Source: Actinomycetota bacterium (GTDB lineage: Bacteria; Actinomycetota; CADDZG01; WHSQ01). From it: 58,726 nucleotides of DNA. The translations under genes and the position numbers were made by a program. Positions 7,808 to 15,487 of this stretch are shown here, one piece after another. The stretch covers positions 1 through 58,726 of the forward strand of contig WHSV01000011.1 of NCBI GenBank assembly GCA_009379915.1, written 5' to 3'. Each line of letters opens with the position of its first letter. The first letter of the stretch is position 1. The notes below the pieces were generated by a model that had not been told where the DNA came from, did not search any database, and saw nothing but the letters and a program-made list of their open reading frames with translations.

Positions 7808-10111
7808 CTACGGGTCGTCTCCGGAAGGCTTCTTACGACCGTTGCCGCCACCGCCGGGGGGAGTGGTCGAGGGTTCGGGAGAGGGTGTCGGGTTCTTGGT
7901 CGGCTCTGGATCGGGTTCCTCTTCGTCCTTGTCCGGCTCTTCCTTTTTCTCCTTGTCGTCCTTGTTCTTCTTCTCCGGCTTCTCGGGAGGAGGCGGGGGA
8001 GTACTGATCACCGTGCCGGAGTCGATTCCGTCCTCGAAGTACTCGACCGGGTAACCACCGATCTCCATCGCCTGGGCCATGAACGCTCCCCACATGGGGG
8101 CCGGGCTCACCGGAGCTCCGCCCCCGCTGACCTCGTATCCCTGCACCGGGCGGCAGAGGTCCGTATCGGTGCAGTAGCGCATCTCGGGAACGACCCCGCT
8201 CTTCTGCAGCGGATAGCCCTCCCACACCACGGTCGCGAGCTGGGGCGTGTAGCCCGCGAACCACGCATCGCGGAAGTTCTGCGTCGTGCCGGTCTTGCCC
8301 GCGACCGGCCGGCCGATGTTCGCGGCCGTCCCAGAGCCCGAGGTCACGACGCTCTGAAGTGCCTCGTTCAACAGGTTGACCGAGTTCTCGTCGACGACCT
8401 GCGTGCTCTTCATCCGGACCTTCTCTTTGCCACAGGCCTTCGAGCTGTTCGGACGGTAGACCTTGACGCACTCACCGTTCGAGTTTTCGACGTAGGCGAC
8501 CGGCGTGATATCCGGCAGCGCTCCGCCGTTGGCGAGTCCCGCGTAGGCGCGGGCCATCTGCAGTGGGGTCACGTCCTGTGTGCCGAGGACGAGCGAGCAG
8601 TTGGGAGTTGTCGGCTGCTTGCCCTTCTTGCTCGGATTCCCGTCGAAACCAAACCCGCCGAGCAGGTCCGCGACGTTCTGGGGGCCGATCTCGACGATGA
8701 GCTGGGCATAGATCGTATTCACCGACGATGCGGTGGCCGACATCAAGTCCATATAGCCGTAGCTGGCGAAGGCGTAATTAGACGGCTGCCACAACTCGCC
8801 GTCCGTGGCGCATTGCGGATCGTCGATCGTGTACGGGCTCGCTCCCGAGAAGCTCGACTGCAGAGAGACCCCGTTCTCGATCGCGGTCAAGAGAGTGAAG
8901 GGTTTGTAGGAGGATCCGGCCTGGCGGTAGTTGTCGCTCGCGTAATTGAAGCCGCGCGCCTTCTTGACGTTGTCGAAGTCGCGGCCCCCGACAAAGGCCC
9001 TGACGGCTCCGTTCGGAGTCATGGAGACGAGCGCCGCCTGGGGATCCTCGGGGGTGGTCAAGGTGGAGGCGATTGCATCCTCCGCGGCTTGCTGCATCTC
9101 CATATCGAGCGTCGTGTGGATCTTGTAACCACCGGTGTAAAGCTCGTTGCCGAACTCTCGCTGGAGGTCGCGCCTGAGCCACTCCATGAAGTAGGCGGCG
9201 GGCTGCTCTTTGCCCGTGGTCGGGTCACCGCCCTTGACGATCTTGATCCTCTTGCCCAGCCACTTGTCGGCCGTTGCCTGGTCGATGTATCCCTGTTCGA
9301 CCATCTGGGTGAGCACCCTGTCGCGTCGTGCGCGCGCCGCTTCCTGGTTGCCCTGGGGTTGGTAGGACTCGGGCGACGGGATTATGCCGGCAAGGAAAGA
9401 GGCCTCGCCGAGATCGAGGTCCTGGGCGCTCTTGTCGAAGTAGGTGCGAGCCGCGGCTTCAATTCCATAGGAGCCGCGACCGAAGTACACGGTGTTGAGG
9501 TAGAAGCCGAGAATCTGATCCTTGGAGTAGCGACGCTCGAGCTTGACGGCGAGAATCGCCTCCTTGAGCTTGCGCTCCACCGTGCGGCCCGGATCCTCGA
9601 GCACGGCCTGCTTGATGTACTGCTGGGTGATCGTCGATCCACCCTGTTGGATCTCGCCGGACGTCAGGTCGGCCCACGCAGCTCGGGCCATGCCGCGCAC
9701 CGAGATTCCGTTGTGCTGGTAGAAGGTGCGGTCTTCGGAGGCCACGACCGCCTCACCGATGTGCTTGGTGGCCTTTTTGTTGATGAGCTCATCGGTGTTG
9801 ATCAGGAAGCGGCGTTGCTCGCCGGAGAAGATGCCGATGAGGTTGCCGTTTGTGTCGTAGACCTCGGCCGCCGACGCGAGGGGCACCTCCCGGGGCAAGG
9901 GGATATTGGCGAACGCGTACGTGAGGAACAGCACCGTCCCGCCTACGCCCAGGGCAACCAGCGGGAGCATCCACCCCAGGCGAAGCAGCCAGCGCGACGC
10001 GCGCGGCCGCTTGACCGGCGCGCGGACTCGCCGAGGTGGTGCTTTTGTGGTGCGCGTCGAGCCCTTGGCGATCCTCGTCCCGCTCGAGGGCCTGCGCGGA
10101 GATTTGCTCAT
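7808..10111 (-). CDS. Class A penicillin-binding protein (transglycosylase/transpeptidase)
   Basis: This bifunctional enzyme polymerises and crosslinks peptidoglycan. There is a basic cytoplasmic tail (residues 1-40) and one membrane anchor (about 43-70). The glycosyltransferase 51 domain has VVASEDRTFYQHNGIS with its catalytic Glu and GGSTITQQYIKQ. The transpeptidase domain has the Ser-x-x-Lys of GSSYKPFT, an SVN motif and KTGTT. The tail is rich in Pro, Glu, Lys and Asp, with many PxP repeats. The 767-residue length is normal for PonA-type proteins. Its position upstream of the GT87 gene matches mycobacterial ponA1. Confidence 0.93.
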   Translation of the reverse strand: MSKSPRRPSSGTRIAKGSTRTTKAPPRRVRAPVKRPRASRWLLRLGWMLPLVALGVGGTVLFLTYAFANIPLPREVPLASAAEVYDTNGNLIGIFSGEQRRFLINTDELINKKATKHIGEAVVASEDRTFYQHNGISVRGMARAAWADLTSGEIQQGGSTITQQYIKQAVLEDPGRTVERKLKEAILAVKLERRYSKDQILGFYLNTVYFGRGSYGIEAAARTYFDKSAQDLDLGEASFLAGIIPSPESYQPQGNQEAARARRDRVLTQMVEQGYIDQATADKWLGKRIKIVKGGDPTTGKEQPAAYFMEWLRRDLQREFGNELYTGGYKIHTTLDMEMQQAAEDAIASTLTTPEDPQAALVSMTPNGAVRAFVGGRDFDNVKKARGFNYASDNYRQAGSSYKPFTLLTAIENGVSLQSSFSGASPYTIDDPQCATDGELWQPSNYAFASYGYMDLMSATASSVNTIYAQLIVEIGPQNVADLLGGFGFDGNPSKKGKQPTTPNCSLVLGTQDVTPLQMARAYAGLANGGALPDITPVAYVENSNGECVKVYRPNSSKACGKEKVRMKSTQVVDENSVNLLNEALQSVVTSGSGTAANIGRPVAGKTGTTQNFRDAWFAGYTPQLATVVWEGYPLQKSGVVPEMRYCTDTDLCRPVQGYEVSGGGAPVSPAPMWGAFMAQAMEIGGYPVEYFEDGIDSGTVISTPPPPPEKPEKKNKDDKEKKEEPDKDEEEPDPEPTKNPTPSPEPSTTPPGGGGNGRKKPSGDDP

Positions 10112-10124
10112 TCGAACGAGTCTA

Positions 10125-10193
10125 GGCGTCGGCGGAGCTTCGCTGCGCCTCGCCGAGCGAAAGGCTCGGAATCCGCCCTACGGGCGGACAAGT
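10125..10193 (+). repeat. REP-like two-hairpin element, copy 1
   Basis: This stretch of about 69 bp contains two adjacent dyads: CCGAGC pairing with GCTCGG, and CCGCCC pairing with GGGCGG. A second copy, roughly 85 % identical over the same length, lies in reverse orientation at 35910-35979. It sits in the gap upstream of the PBP gene. Confidence 0.7.
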
Positions 10194-10260
10194 CTCTAGG
10201 CTCCTGAGATGGGCAATCCTTCGCCTTTACAGATTTCGCCGCTTCCACGCCTCTAGCCCC

Positions 10261-11730
10261 TCAGAGGTTGCTCGGAGGCAGAAATCCGTAGCTCAGCCCC
10301 TCGATGGCGAGGTAGATGACGACCGCCAGGGTGCCCACCGCGATGAGAGCGGCAACCCCCACCATCACGGCGGTGTCGGCGCGGTCCTCGGAGTAGACGA
10401 GCGTGGCGGTGGTCGCCTCGACCTCGGGGGCGACGAACCCCGCTCTTCCCGCCCCTCGCCGGTAGGCGATCGCTCCCGCCACCAATGCGAGTATCAGGGC
10501 GGCGCCGCTCAATGAAAGGACCCTGTCGAAGTCGCCGAGCGTGTCCCGAGCGAGCCCGAGCACGGACGGCGGGGCGAGGCCCAGGCAGAGTCCGGCAATT
10601 AACAGAACGCTCGCCGCCACGGTCGGGCGCACCTCGGACGTGTTGTGCGCGCTCCGGCGTGCGAGGCGCGCGGCCAAGGCCACTCCGGCGGCGACCGTCA
10701 GGAGCAGCAGACCTGCGACCAAGCTCCACACCACCGACGGCCCCCCGGCTCGATCAAAGGCCGGCACCGCGGTCGCGACGATTGCCACCCAGCCCGCCGT
10801 CGGAGGCAGGAATCCCAGCAGGAGCCCTCCGGCCGCGCGGGCCACACCGCGGGTCGCCGTGCACAGCGCCACCATCGTGACCGCAAACAGGGCCGCGAGC
10901 GCGCCCGCCTGGAGGGCCGCCGGAGCGGCGACGAGGAGCCCCAGGCTCAGCCATACCGGCCAGGACCCGAGCAGCGAGAGACTCAGTTCCCTTCCGGCCA
11001 GAGCCGCGCCGCACAATCCGAGGGCCGCCACCAGAGCAGCGACCGCGAGCCATGGTCCGGCCGCAGACAGAGGAACACCGAGCAGCGCCAGAGGTCCACC
11101 AAGAAAAAGCGGCAAAGCGGGTGCCGCCGGCGAGTCGAGCGCCTCCCAAACCCCCGTGAGCGGCAATGCTCCCGAGCGAACCACGAGGGATGCTAGTGCG
11201 AGTCCCAGAGGCAGCCCCCCGAGTGATTCGGGCACGGTCCACACTCGATCGTCCAGGGCGTGGAGCGCGAACGCCCCGACGAGGGCCAGGTCGGACAATC
11301 CGATCGCGAGCAGTGCCCCCACCCGGAGCTCGTCCTGCGAGAGGAGCGCGACCAGGGCGACGGACGACGCGAGCCACAACGCGAGGCCGGGTACAACCCA
11401 ATCATTGAGGGATGCCAGGAGGACCCCACTGCTCGCGAGACCGACGAGCGCCGCCGATCCGAGCGTCCGGTCGTTCCCCAGCGCGCCCGCGAGCAGCCAG
11501 GCGCAGGCAACCGCAGCTCCCGCTATGACCCCTCGAGGCTGTCCCAGCGTGGTCGAGCGCCAGACCGCCTCGTCACCGGCGGCGGCCACGGCCAAGGCGA
11601 TGCCGGCGGCGCTTCCGATCGTCGCCGCGGCCACGAGGATGGCTCGGCGCCATCTGCGAGGCGCGAAAACCGCCCCGGCCAGGAGGAGGGCCAGGACGAC
11701 GTGTACTGAATACAGAATTACGGGACTCAC
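10261..11730 (-). CDS. Polytopic membrane protein resembling NuoM/NuoN/Mrp antiporter subunits
   Basis: The 489-residue protein has about 14 membrane segments. SGALPLTGVWEALDSPAAPA resembles the segment of proton-pumping subunits in which a Lys and HxWLPDA precede the discontinuous helix. GFLPPTAGWVAIV resembles the G(I/L)PPTAGF motif of NuoN. Most conserved charged residues of true pumps appear to be absent: Ser stands where the pump Lys is expected and Val-Trp replaces His-x-Trp. The GTG start at 11728-11730 overlaps the preceding stop as GTGA. It is the last gene of the DUF5318 operon. No other nuo gene is present. The antiporter-like assignment is inference from motifs. Confidence 0.6.
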   Translation of the reverse strand: MSPVILYSVHVVLALLLAGAVFAPRRWRRAILVAAATIGSAAGIALAVAAAGDEAVWRSTTLGQPRGVIAGAAVACAWLLAGALGNDRTLGSAALVGLASSGVLLASLNDWVVPGLALWLASSVALVALLSQDELRVGALLAIGLSDLALVGAFALHALDDRVWTVPESLGGLPLGLALASLVVRSGALPLTGVWEALDSPAAPALPLFLGGPLALLGVPLSAAGPWLAVAALVAALGLCGAALAGRELSLSLLGSWPVWLSLGLLVAAPAALQAGALAALFAVTMVALCTATRGVARAAGGLLLGFLPPTAGWVAIVATAVPAFDRAGGPSVVWSLVAGLLLLTVAAGVALAARLARRSAHNTSEVRPTVAASVLLIAGLCLGLAPPSVLGLARDTLGDFDRVLSLSGAALILALVAGAIAYRRGAGRAGFVAPEVEATTATLVYSEDRADTAVMVGVAALIAVGTLAVVIYLAIEGLSYGFLPPSNL

Positions 11731-12443
11731 GGGGCCCCCGCAATCAGTCCTGCAGCGACAAGGAGCGCCAGCGTGGCGACCGCCATCACGGCGACGCGCA
11801 CCCGGGCAGCGAGCAACCGAGCGAGCAGCCCTCCCCCGATGCCGAGGGTAATCACGGCAGCCGACGCTGCCGCCCATCCGGCAACCGAATCAACGACCTC
11901 CGAGCCGGGCACCTCCTCCAAGCCGAGCAGAACCTTCGGGCCCCAGAATGCGGTCACCAGCGCGAGGGCCATGGCCAGGGTCTCGAGGCCCGTCCAGGCC
12001 CAGGCGCCCAATCCCCGCACCGGAAGCGCCGCGACCCACAGAGCCAGAGCGAGAGTGGCGGCAACCGCCGCGGCGGTGACTGCGACCGCCGTCGTCTCCG
12101 GACCGACCAGGAGCGTGGGTCCGAGAACCGCTTGCACCGACCGGAGCTCGGCGAGCTCCATACTGCCCCACCTGAGCGCAACGATGCCGAGAGCGCCGGC
12201 AACGACCGCCAGCCCCGCCGCGGCCAGCGCCTGATCTATGCGGTCCATCCGAAGACAGCGTCCGAAGGTGATCAGCGCGAGGCCCGCAGCCGCCGCGGCG
12301 AGCGCTCCACCAACGAGACCGGTCAGATAGCCGAGGGCCAGGACGAGCCCGCCGGCGCGCGCTCCGGCGGCAACGGCCAGGGTCGATCTCTCTGCATGAG
12401 TCGGTGCCACGGTTTGTGGCTCGGTTTCGGAACGAGCGCTCAA
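11727..12443 (-). CDS. Hypothetical multispanning membrane protein
   Basis: This 238-residue protein is rich in Ala, Leu, Val and Gly, with about seven membrane segments and few charged residues. I do not recognise a family. Its translational coupling to the NuoN-like protein suggests that the two form one membrane complex, perhaps a counterpart of another small Nuo or hydrogenase membrane subunit. I chose TTG at 12443 because it overlaps the DUF5318 stop as TTGA. A GTG 11 codons later is the alternative. Both members of the pair are absent from the corresponding mycobacterial locus as I know it. Confidence 0.6.
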   Translation of the reverse strand: MSARSETEPQTVAPTHAERSTLAVAAGARAGGLVLALGYLTGLVGGALAAAAAGLALITFGRCLRMDRIDQALAAAGLAVVAGALGIVALRWGSMELAELRSVQAVLGPTLLVGPETTAVAVTAAAVAATLALALWVAALPVRGLGAWAWTGLETLAMALALVTAFWGPKVLLGLEEVPGSEVVDSVAGWAAASAAVITLGIGGGLLARLLAARVRVAVMAVATLALLVAAGLIAGAP

Positions 12444-12889
12444 CCCTGCTGCTTGCGTTCCCGCAGCGGGGGCCGGCCCGCGAACTTCCTGCCCGTGACG
12501 TAGGACCGCATCAAGTGATTCCACGCGCAGTCGGTGCAGACCTCGACGACGTAACAGGTGAACTGGTCGTAGTTCGCCATGAGCTCGTGCAACCAATCAG
12601 TCGGGTAGACGACGCGGCCGCTGTTGTGCTTGAGGTCGTCTCCGTAGACGTAGCGGACCCAGCGAAGGGTTTCGTGCGAACACACCGGACAGGGCGCGGG
12701 AACTTCCTCGCCAATGTTCTTGCCCGCCCGCATCAACTCGGGATGCGCGTCGCAAACATCGGTGGTCGCAAGCCGGCCTCCTCTGAGCGCCTCGAGCGTC
12801 GAGCGTCTCGCCAGGCTGTAGTCGACCACCGGTCCCGTCGTCGAGACGGGGGGCCTCGTTGGATCGAAGGACCTACCCGAAAGGGTCAT
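12440..12889 (-). CDS. DUF5318 family protein (zinc-ribbon-like)
   Basis: This 149-residue soluble protein has CPVC near residue 68 and CTDC near residue 118, a probable zinc-binding pair. It also has the conserved stretches VVDYSLARRSTLEALR, DVCDAHPELMRAG and WNHLMRSYVTGRK. The family is found next to the class A PBP gene in actinobacteria (the Rv0049 position). Its role is unknown. The ATG at 12889 has only a weak ribosome-binding site. Upstream in-frame sequence runs through the repeat array and is not likely to be coding. Confidence 0.82.
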   Translation of the reverse strand: MTLSGRSFDPTRPPVSTTGPVVDYSLARRSTLEALRGGRLATTDVCDAHPELMRAGKNIGEEVPAPCPVCSHETLRWVRYVYGDDLKHNSGRVVYPTDWLHELMANYDQFTCYVVEVCTDCAWNHLMRSYVTGRKFAGRPPLRERKQQG

Positions 12890-12951: not shown

Positions 12952-13232
12952 CCTTGGTCTCGCCGGACTCAAACCGGGCACCGAGAAGGAGAGTCGGGAG
13001 TGACACGAGCCCGGGTTGTGTTGGTCTCACCGGGCGACAACCGGGCACCGACGGGAGACTCGGAAAGGGATCGGGTTGTCGGGCCCGGTTACGTGGGTCT
13101 CGCGCGGGGGCGAGTACCCGGCTTCGTCGGGGACGAGAGGGTGGGGAGTCGAGTTTTCGGGCCCGATTGTGTTGGTCTCGCCGGGCGAAACCGGCACCGA
13201 AGGGCGGCTCTTCCGGTTCCTCGGGCCCGCCT
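12952..13232. repeat. Four degenerate tandem repeats of about 70-78 bp
   Basis: Four units start with TTGGTCTC or TGGGTCTCGC at about 12952, 13020, 13092 and 13171. Shared blocks are CCGGGCGA near the start, ACCGGGCACCGA in the middle and a GGGCCCG-TTGTG end. The units have diverged by substitutions and small indels. No coding potential is evident. They belong to the same family as the blocks near 13.4, 22.3-22.6 and 32.9-33.4 kb. The rest of 12890-13604 holds no recognisable gene. Confidence 0.75.
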
Positions 13233-13377
13233 AGAGCGGATTCTGCGAAGGTTCGACCCTCAACCCACCGAAACGATGGCTGAATGTCGAGAGCTCCCAT
13301 GTGCGGACATCTGCTCATCCTCTGGGGTGAGTGAGCGTCCAAGCCTGCCTCATTACCCAACCGAGGGGCAGATCGAC

Positions 13378-13527
13378 CCCACGGGCACCAACTCACACCC
13401 GTAGATGCCGGGTTTGCCCTCTCCCACCCACTCCGAAGCGGGCGGATCCGGTCGACTCACGACCAACTCGGCCCGTAGGTGCTGGTTTTGCCTTGCCCGG
13501 CCCTAGAAGCACCCGGAGCGGCCAGAT
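13378..13527. repeat. Two further repeat units of the dispersed family, opposite orientation
   Basis: Two units of about 70-80 bp share the core CACCAACT followed by CCCGTAG-TGC-GG-TTTGCC at about 13386-13417 and 13461-13492. The orientation is opposite to the neighbouring four-unit array. They lie upstream of the padR operator-like array. Confidence 0.7.
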
Positions 13528-13604
13528 CCAGCCGGGTCAAATCCCCACGAGGCCTCAGACCGCCTCTTCCGGAGCGCCCGATTTGCCAAGATCATTGTCA
13601 CGTG

Positions 13605-13653
13605 GTGATATATCAACTCGATATATCCAAGTGATGTATCGTGGTGATACTTG
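13605..13653. promoter_or_regulatory. Four operator-like half sites with exact 13-bp spacing upstream of padR
   Basis: GATATATC starts at 13607 and 13620, GATGTATC at 13633 and the degenerate GATACTTG at 13646. The spacing is exactly 13 bp each time. The array ends about 40 bases before the padR start and overlaps the place where its promoter should lie. It is a good candidate for the binding site of PadR itself. Confidence 0.65.
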
Positions 13654-13694
13654 AAATCGACAGCACCTTAGGCGAACGACCAGGAAAGGACGCA

Positions 13695-14276
13695 ATGAAG
13701 AAGGCAGGGATGCTCGAGCTGCCCGTTCTGGGCCTGCTCAAGGAGCGTTCGATGCACGGTTACGAACTGCGTAAGCAGCTCGGCGCCATGCTCGGGCCCT
13801 TCTACCAGGTGTCCTGGGGCTCGCTCTATCCCACGTTGAGGCGGCTCGCCAAGGCGGGGGCCGTCGAGAAGGCCGAGCCGGCACCGGACAAGCCCAAGAC
13901 CGCCGGAGCACTGACCGGCGGACGGCGCAAGACCGTTTACACGATCACCTCACAGGGCGAGGCCATGTTCCTGCAGATGCTCGAGGAGACCGCGGCCGCG
14001 GTCGACGCCGAGCACTTCACCTTGAAGCTGGCCTTCTTCAGATATCTGGCCCCCGAAGCTCGCCTTGCGCTGCTCGAGCGGCGACGGGCGTACCTCCAGG
14101 AGAAACTCGCGCAGTTCAAGTCGAACCTCCGCACTTATCGCGAGCGCATGGACGGCTACGCGCTGTCCCTGCAGAACCACGACATGCGTGCCACCGAAAG
14201 TGACATTGCGTGGATCGAGGAACTCATAACCAACGAGCGGAACCTCAACGAGGTCCGCCCCAACACACAGAGCTGA
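13695..14276 (+). CDS. PadR family transcriptional regulator
   Basis: This is a 193-residue repressor-type regulator. The N-terminal winged helix reads [20 protein letters not shown], then [16 protein letters not shown] basic wing follows ([12 protein letters not shown]), and then a C-terminal helical domain for dimerisation and effector sensing ([20 protein letters not shown]). ATG at 13695 is preceded by GGAAAGGA; the frame is open further upstream but would run through the operator array. ino1 begins 17 bases downstream in the same direction, as for Rv0047c/ino1 in Mycobacterium, so PadR probably controls itself and inositol-phosphate synthesis. Confidence 0.92.
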
Positions 14277-14293: not shown

Positions 14294-15487
14294 ATGGCCA
14301 AGGTAAGAGTTGGAATAATCGGAGTCGGAAACTGCGCTTCGGCACTCGTCCAAGGAGTCGAGTTCTACGCGAAAGCGCGCGACGACGAGCGTGTTCCCGG
14401 ACTCATGAACGTCGAGCTCGGCGGTTACCACATCAGCGACATCGAATTCGTGTGCGCCTTCGACGTCGACTCCAACAAGATCGGCCTCGATCTGTCCGAC
14501 GCCATCTGGGTCGAGCCCAACAACACCGTCAAATTCTCGGACGTTCCCGAAACGGGTATCAAGGTCCAACGAGGACACACCTACGACGGACTCGGCAGCT
14601 TCTATCGCGACGAGATCACCGAGAGCGAACTGCCTCCGGTGGACGTCGCGAGGGTCTTGAAAGAAACCAAGTGCGACGTGCTCATCAACTACCTACCCGT
14701 CGGTTCCGAGCAGGCCGCTCGCTTCTACGCCGAGCAGGCGCTCGAGGCTGGCATCGGCTTCATCAACTGCATGCCGGAGTTCATCGCAACGCGCGAGGAC
14801 TGGGCCGACCGCTTCACCCGCAAGGGCATTCCGATAATCGGTGACGACATCAAGAGCCAGGTCGGCGCGACGATCAGCCATCGCGTGCTCTCGAAACTGT
14901 TCGAGGACCGTGGCGTGATCATCGATCACACCTACCAGTTGAACTTCGGCGGCAACATGGACTTCAAGAACATGCTCGAGCGCGAGCGCCTGCAGTCCAA
15001 GAAGATCTCCAAGACCCAGAGCGTCACGTCTCAGATCTCCGGCGGTATCGACGCCGACGACATCCACATCGGTCCCTCGGATCACGTGCCTTGGCTCAAG
15101 GATCGCAAGTGGGCTTACATCCGGATCGAGGGCCGCGAGTTCGGCAACATCCCCATCAGCATGGAGCTCAAGCTCGAGGTATGGGACTCGCCGAACTCGG
15201 CGGGCGTCGTAATCGATGCGATCCGTTGCATCAAGCTGGCTATGGATCGCGGTGAAGGTGGGCCGCTGCTCGCTCCGAGCGCGTACTTCATGAAGTCGCC
15301 GCCGGTGCAGTACAGCGACTCCGAGGCGAAGGAGCTCGTCGACGCCTTCATCCGGGGTGACGACAGCGAGTTCATCCTGCACTCGGGCGGCTCGGGGGGT
15401 GACCCGCAGGTCTCCGGTACCACCCACGGCAACGGCCTCGTCGAGCGCCACGTCGACCTCGAGCGGGAGTTCGAGCCGAAGCGGTAG
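14294..15487 (+). CDS. ino1: Inositol-3-phosphate synthase
   Basis: This enzyme converts glucose 6-phosphate to 1L-myo-inositol 1-phosphate using NAD. In actinobacteria the product feeds phosphatidylinositol, PIMs and mycothiol. The Rossmann motif is [18 protein letters not shown]. Typical stretches are [36 protein letters not shown], and NFGGNMDF with [15 protein letters not shown]. At 397 residues it is slightly longer than the mycobacterial enzyme (about 367) because of a hydrophilic C-terminal extension rich in Gly, Glu and Arg. It is co-transcribed with padR, and a strong terminator follows. Confidence 0.95.

Follow-up and report, generated by a model that had tools for sequence, protein, structure and literature searches.

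Overlapping 13-bp dyads upstream of padR-ino1 form a likely PadR autoregulatory operator across the actinobacterial phylum

The window, a 58,726-nt stretch of an Actinomycetota genome, contains a periodic array (13607-13653) directly before padR and ino1. We judge it highly likely that this array is the autoregulatory operator of padR-ino1, on which PadR from the adjacent gene would bind overlapping dyads as dimers. The array is conserved, keeps a 13-bp register, is tied to padR, and has dyad symmetry. In the mechanism that we propose, a PadR dimer would bind the dyad TATCG-N3-CGATA, which is offered three times, together with one decayed copy, with abutting ends and with GATATATC shared by neighbors. 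PadR bound over the predicted -10 element and transcription start would keep RNA polymerase off both genes until released by a signal, probably one tied to inositol status. The overlapping dyads would admit more than one dimer, either side by side on faces ~86 degrees apart or in alternating registers. Array-bound PadR may activate transcription instead of repressing it.

Results and Discussion

The padR and ino1 genes

Inositol phosphate synthase supplies phosphatidylinositol lipids and mycothiol in actinobacteria. Both genes lie on the plus strand: padR (13695-14276) encodes a PadR-1-type regulator of 193 amino acids, and ino1 (14294-15487), which follows the padR stop codon at a distance of 17 bp, encodes an inositol-phosphate synthase. 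A ribosome-binding site, AGGAAAGG, can be read at 13682-13689 (plus strand), and 45 bp separate the end of the last GATA of the array from the padR ATG. The regulator belongs to a known family. It carries the PadR winged-helix domain (PF03551, 56.7 bits against a cutoff of 27) and the PadR-1 C-terminal helical domain (PF10400, Vir_act_alpha_C, 31.4 bits against 22.4), and its length agrees with the ~190 to 200 amino acids typical of the family. The best fold match of its AlphaFold model (mean pLDDT, 82.5) is PDB 8jxk, the structure of Mycobacterium tuberculosis Rv0047c, which is also its best PDB sequence match; the protein is an orthologue of Rv0047c. Two tyrosines that do not vary among 27 orthologues, Y23 and Y45, are candidate counterparts of the signature DNA-contacting tyrosines, Y20 and Y42 in BsPadR. 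The ino1 product belongs to the synthase family PF01658 and scores 557.9 bits (E value, 9.1e-168) against TIGR03450, the mycothiol-type INO1 equivalog, which is below the 638-bit cutoff of that model. Rv0047c is described as a PadR-like gene co-transcribed with ino1 (Rv0046c) (PMC3899939, PMC5571309) and is termed uncharacterized (PMC3899939). The Mycobacterium smegmatis pair MSMEG_6903-6904 moves together in a zinc-response study (PMC7174638).

An exact 13-bp period that exceeds chance

Four units can be read in the array: GATATATC at 13607-13614 and again at 13620-13627, GATGTATC at 13633-13640, and GATACTTG (GATACttg) at 13646-13653. They start 13, 13, and 13 bp apart and are separated, in order, by the spacers aactc, caagt, and gtggt. 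The sequence-only reading had reported four motifs at exactly this spacing, and both the sequence and shuffled controls bear it out. When the region 13251-13750 was shuffled 1,000 times with dinucleotides preserved and any period from 9 to 24 allowed, the best three-unit score was 19 (array, 23) and the best four-unit score was 21 (array, 28). A template-free scan of the 58.7-kb window for three similar 8-mers with a period of 9 to 24 found the array to be the sole place at its score. That an AT-rich patch is periodic by chance, a reading with AT-richness as the sole point in its favor, is ruled out by the shuffles and by the phylum-wide conservation described below, and its probability is negligible. 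The tandem-repeat finder TRF gave no hit at the array, probably owing to its variable N5 spacers.

A search of the 3.39-Mb genome for GATATATC-N5-GATATATC with up to three mismatches returned the array, as two overlapping matches, and a single three-mismatch match elsewhere that is likely due to chance; within this threshold, no second convincing copy was found. The search gave no sign of a wider regulon in this genome, where padR-ino1 is the predicted main target of PadR.

Conservation across the phylum and the tie to padR

We gathered 36 padR-ino1 loci by PadR protein similarity (~80% to 34% identity) without reference to the motif. The pair GATATATC-N5-GATATATC occurs in these loci exactly in 22, with one or two mismatches in 13, and with five mismatches in 1, so that 35 of 36 lie within two mismatches; shuffled upstream regions of the same loci never came within fewer than five. 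The best pair spacing was 13 bp in 33 of the 36, with multiples of 13 (26 and 39) among the others and among ties. The refuting observation that the sequence-only reading had named, loss of the periodicity in relatives, did not materialize, as the 13-bp period is kept in close and distant relatives alike, and the search for the array before padR-ino1 in related genomes, which that reading had proposed as a check, finds it phylum-wide.

The exact pair is present in 46 of 397 genomes of the phylum, at one site each, and a reversed control pattern gave no matches in the same 397 genomes. Directly before padR-ino1 lie 42 of these sites, a 43rd precedes padR at a contig edge, and 3 lie elsewhere. 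A stricter double dyad, TATCGN3CGATATATCGN3CGATA with at most one mismatch, matches 42 genomes, and all 30 of the loci that were fetched precede padR-ino1. At five ino1 genes from genomes that lack this padR, the array was absent in every case, which indicates that it belongs to padR rather than to ino1. On these comparisons, the array is one copy of a putative operator that precedes the padR-ino1 pair across the actinobacterial phylum. The earlier proposal that it controls inositol-phosphate synthesis thus holds insofar as this is a regulatory array of padR-ino1, with the amendment that it tracks padR.

Another regulator, such as the LacI-type IpsA, might bind the array. In Corynebacterium, ino1 is under IpsA control, and an IpsA site has been reported to lie within Rv0047c (PMC3899939). 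The array, however, sits upstream of padR and not of ino1, it is missing before ino1 genes that lack padR, and a further exact pair precedes a different PadR paralogue, all of which make binding by another regulator improbable.

The three exact pairs outside padR-ino1 are of different kinds. One (L097:134-154) precedes another PadR paralogue, ~30% identical, which is followed by a gene for an MMPL-type exporter (named from sequence); from this site, the same half-sites may serve other PadR proteins as well. A second (L094, around 1501), found in a genome that lacks this padR-ino1, precedes a solute-binding-protein-like gene and may be a chance match. The third (L095) falls within a reading frame.

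The repeat unit is a shared 13-bp dyad

The sequence-only reading treated the array as four half-sites. The 13-bp repetition stands, but alignment favors overlapping TATC-N5-GATA dyads over half-sites as the unit, and the array is better read as 13-bp dyads, TATCG-N3-CGATA, with abutting ends. Each GATATATC is then a junction at which the right half of one predicted dyad meets the left half of its neighbor. A decayed upstream dyad, TCAC-gtggt-GATA (TCACgtggtGATA, 13598-13610), is followed by dyad 1, TATC-aactc-GATA (TATCaactcGATA, 13611-13623), which matches the conserved dyad logo; by dyad 2, TATC-caagt-GATG (TATCcaagtGATG, 13624-13636), which has one mismatch; and by dyad 3, TATC-gtggt-GATA (TATCgtggtGATA, 13637-13649). 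With its left outer bases, dyad 3 reads GATGTATC...GATAC, an ATGT-type half-site. Around dyad 1 lies the core pair GATATATC-AACTC-GATATATC (13607-13627), a 21-bp inverted repeat about 13617 that is near-invariant in relatives.

We examined register and symmetry in 56 diverged loci aligned on this core pair. An intact TATC in the register of the upstream dyad, starting 9 bp before the core, occurs in 27 of the 56 (other offsets, 0 to 1), and a flanking GATA starts 26 bp after the core start in 33 (other offsets, 0 to 3). Letters outside the core are conserved at this 13-bp register only, and the resulting pattern is TATC-N5-GATA|TATC-N5-GATA|TATC-N5-GATA. The spacers tend toward G-R-N-Y-C, the logo as a whole has mirror symmetry around the middle spacer, and conservation is far higher in the core pair than in its flanks. 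Among 58 loci, with at most one mismatch per dyad, three dyads occur in 27, two in 20, and a single one in 11. Longer lattices stay on the 13-bp register, with five units in one locus (L093), four in another, the third of them poor (L008), and four in a family of loci (L098-L103). The fourth unit of the array had been called decayed, which the relatives contradict: they usually terminate in GATA alone, with GATAC the commonest form, and by comparison with them the fourth unit is an ordinary terminal half.

Two short loci with one strong dyad (L079 and L082) read GATGTATC...GATACATC, of the ATGT/ACAT type. All four loci that carry C at position 5 of the half-site lack a flanking GATA (Fisher P = 0.025, from few loci), which fits GATATATC as a compromise that serves two neighboring dimers. 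The counterpart, a left unit carrying G where the upstream TATC is absent, gave no signal in the aligned loci.

The two half-sites contacted by a winged-helix dimer lie roughly one helical turn from each other. Points half a turn (~5 bp) to either side of the center of the N5 spacer fall on the most conserved letters, GATA and TATC, so each dimer probably sits on a spacer. We rejected GATATATC itself as the primary center of a dimer site, since the recognition zone would then hit the variable, least conserved spacer bases.

Position relative to the promoter

A consensus promoter scan of the window found none. By analogy with relatives, we assign a candidate -10 element, TGATAT (13606-13611, plus strand), that merges into the first array unit and lies 17 bp from a candidate -35 element, TTGCCA (13583-13588, plus strand); the latter agrees with TTGACA at five of six positions and is weak in the window but occupies the region of the TTGACA-like hexamers of relatives. 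Of 58 loci, 25 carry such a hexamer upstream of the array (shuffled mean, 4.8; maximum, 13), most commonly 30 bp before the first TATC. An array so placed lies around the -10 element and start, a repressor position, and the array probably covers the predicted -10 element and transcription start.

The distance from the array to the start codon varies from ~0 to 86 nt among loci, and this counts against a reading in which the inverted repeats would fold into a hairpin in the leader RNA. The stretch GATATATCGNNNCGATATATC could form a 9-bp stem. Across 9 stem pairs in 58 loci, however, only three cells are changed on both sides, variants break pairs, and the flanks make a lattice and not a single stem. 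An Rfam search of the array gave no match. The absence of an Rfam match and the broken stem pairs led us to set aside a hairpin or riboswitch as very unlikely.

How many dimers the array would hold

The arithmetic of the sequence-only reading, that a 13-bp spacing is not helical (10.5 bp) and would set sites on rotating faces, is correct, since 13 bp amounts to 1.24 turns, or ~86 degrees per step. Crude geometry puts neighboring dimer centers ~56 to 65 Å apart, near contact, which permits dimers that touch on rotated faces. Adjacent dimers would place their recognition helices in one groove with ~2.5 bp between them, which makes mutual exclusion of dimers a live rival. The array thus poses a clean question: can PadR dimers share half-sites on DNA?

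Two models within the operator hypothesis bear on this question. A single dimer may occupy the 21-bp inverted repeat GATATATC-N5-GATATATC while neighboring registers exclude each other, the flanking TATC and GATA being weak secondary sites that raise the local PadR concentration or allow rebinding; we regard this model as quite plausible, if short of probable. It is consistent with a core conserved far beyond its flanks, with the 11 of 58 loci that have a single dyad, with the nonshared half-sites GATGTATC/GATACATC of the short forms, and with the predicted crowding of adjacent helices in one groove. Against it, roughly half of the 56 diverged loci have flanks in the exact 13-bp register, arrays reach four to five units in several lineages, and half-site sharing is kept despite the cost suggested by C at position 5.

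Alternatively, as the sequence-only reading suggested, PadR may form a special cooperative oligomer in which touching dimers encircle the DNA, each turned 86 degrees from the last, a model that we hold to be possible but doubtful. It is favored by the exact 13-bp phase of long arrays, by the near contact of dimer centers in our rough geometry, and by precedents: two LmrR dimers bind one PadR site (PMC5428041), and IdeR sets two dimers on opposite faces (PMC8464063). The single-dyad operons and a possible clash of helices in the shared half-site argue against it. These operons also imply that a higher oligomer is not required in all orthologous operons and that a higher form would be a tuning feature rather than a necessity. 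Because 11 of 58 orthologous loci have one dyad, the array, as judged by dyad counts, is not essential at every padR-ino1 locus. A tentative and rather unlikely extension is that PadR dimers assemble cooperatively on the half-site-sharing lattice and that, lineage by lineage, the number of units determines how steeply inositol synthase is controlled. If so, the lattice would be a filament-type PadR operator, for which we found no description in the literature on the PadR family.

Comparison with known operators

Operators of PadR and LmrR carry an ATGT-N8(10)-ACAT inverted repeat (PMC3506622, PMC5428041). The array resembles them in presenting an inverted repeat before a PadR gene, and the short forms have ATGT...ACAT. 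It differs in its N11 spacing (against 8 to 10), its extended inner TATCG/CGATA, and its overlapping 13-bp repetition. The core in the window has ATAT letters and N11 spacing, outside the canonical ATGT-N8-10-ACAT, whereas L079 and L082 have ATGT-N11-ACAT, the canonical letters at a wider spacing. Among PadR operators, the predicted one counts as a variant and not as a canonical example.

The overlapping palindromes of LmrR-, IdeR-, and QacR-type operators recur here at the sequence level. In Lactococcus, two LmrR dimers occupy one PadR site (PMC5428041) and multiple LmrR dimers bind LmrR's own promoter (PMC4534193). The likeness would be autoregulation with more than one PadR-family dimer per operator; in contrast, LmrR is of the PadR-2 type and regulates a drug pump, and the available parts of its description mention no regular 13-bp lattice. 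Two IdeR dimers bind one 19-bp site on opposite faces (PMC8464063). IdeR/DtxR double-dimer sites are alike in that overlapping palindromes share sequence and the dimers lie on different DNA faces, but they belong to another protein family and set dimers on opposite faces of a 19-bp site instead of in 13-bp steps of ~86 degrees.

A further counterpart is the orthologous gene pair Rv0047c-Rv0046c (padR-ino1) of M. tuberculosis, whose regulator is the best fold match, 8jxk. The parts of its literature available give no operator, and a Mycobacterium-like locus (L080, identity inferred) has one dyad only. Our literature search, which covered sources outside subscription journals, found no description of a padR-ino1 operator. 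The phylum-wide putative operator offers PadR proteins of the Rv0047c type a candidate binding sequence.

Neighborhood of the array

Divergent from padR-ino1, the minus strand (7808-12856) carries two genes, one penicillin-binding-protein-like (7808-10111) and the other for a DUF5318 protein (12440-12856), a gene order that we take to resemble the Mycobacterium ponA1-Rv0049-Rv0047c-ino1 neighborhood. Between the DUF5318 gene and padR lie imperfect direct repeats (12954-13229), in pairs of 33 and 31 nt that are 82 to 84% identical at spacings of 64 to 78 bp and contain the phrases TTGGTCTCGCCGGGCG and TCGGGCCCG. Upstream of the array, at 13389-13520, two similar stretches, ACCAACTCACACCCGTAGATGCCGGGTTTGCC and ACCAACTCGGCCCGTAGGTGCTGGTTTTGCC, lie ~75 bp apart.
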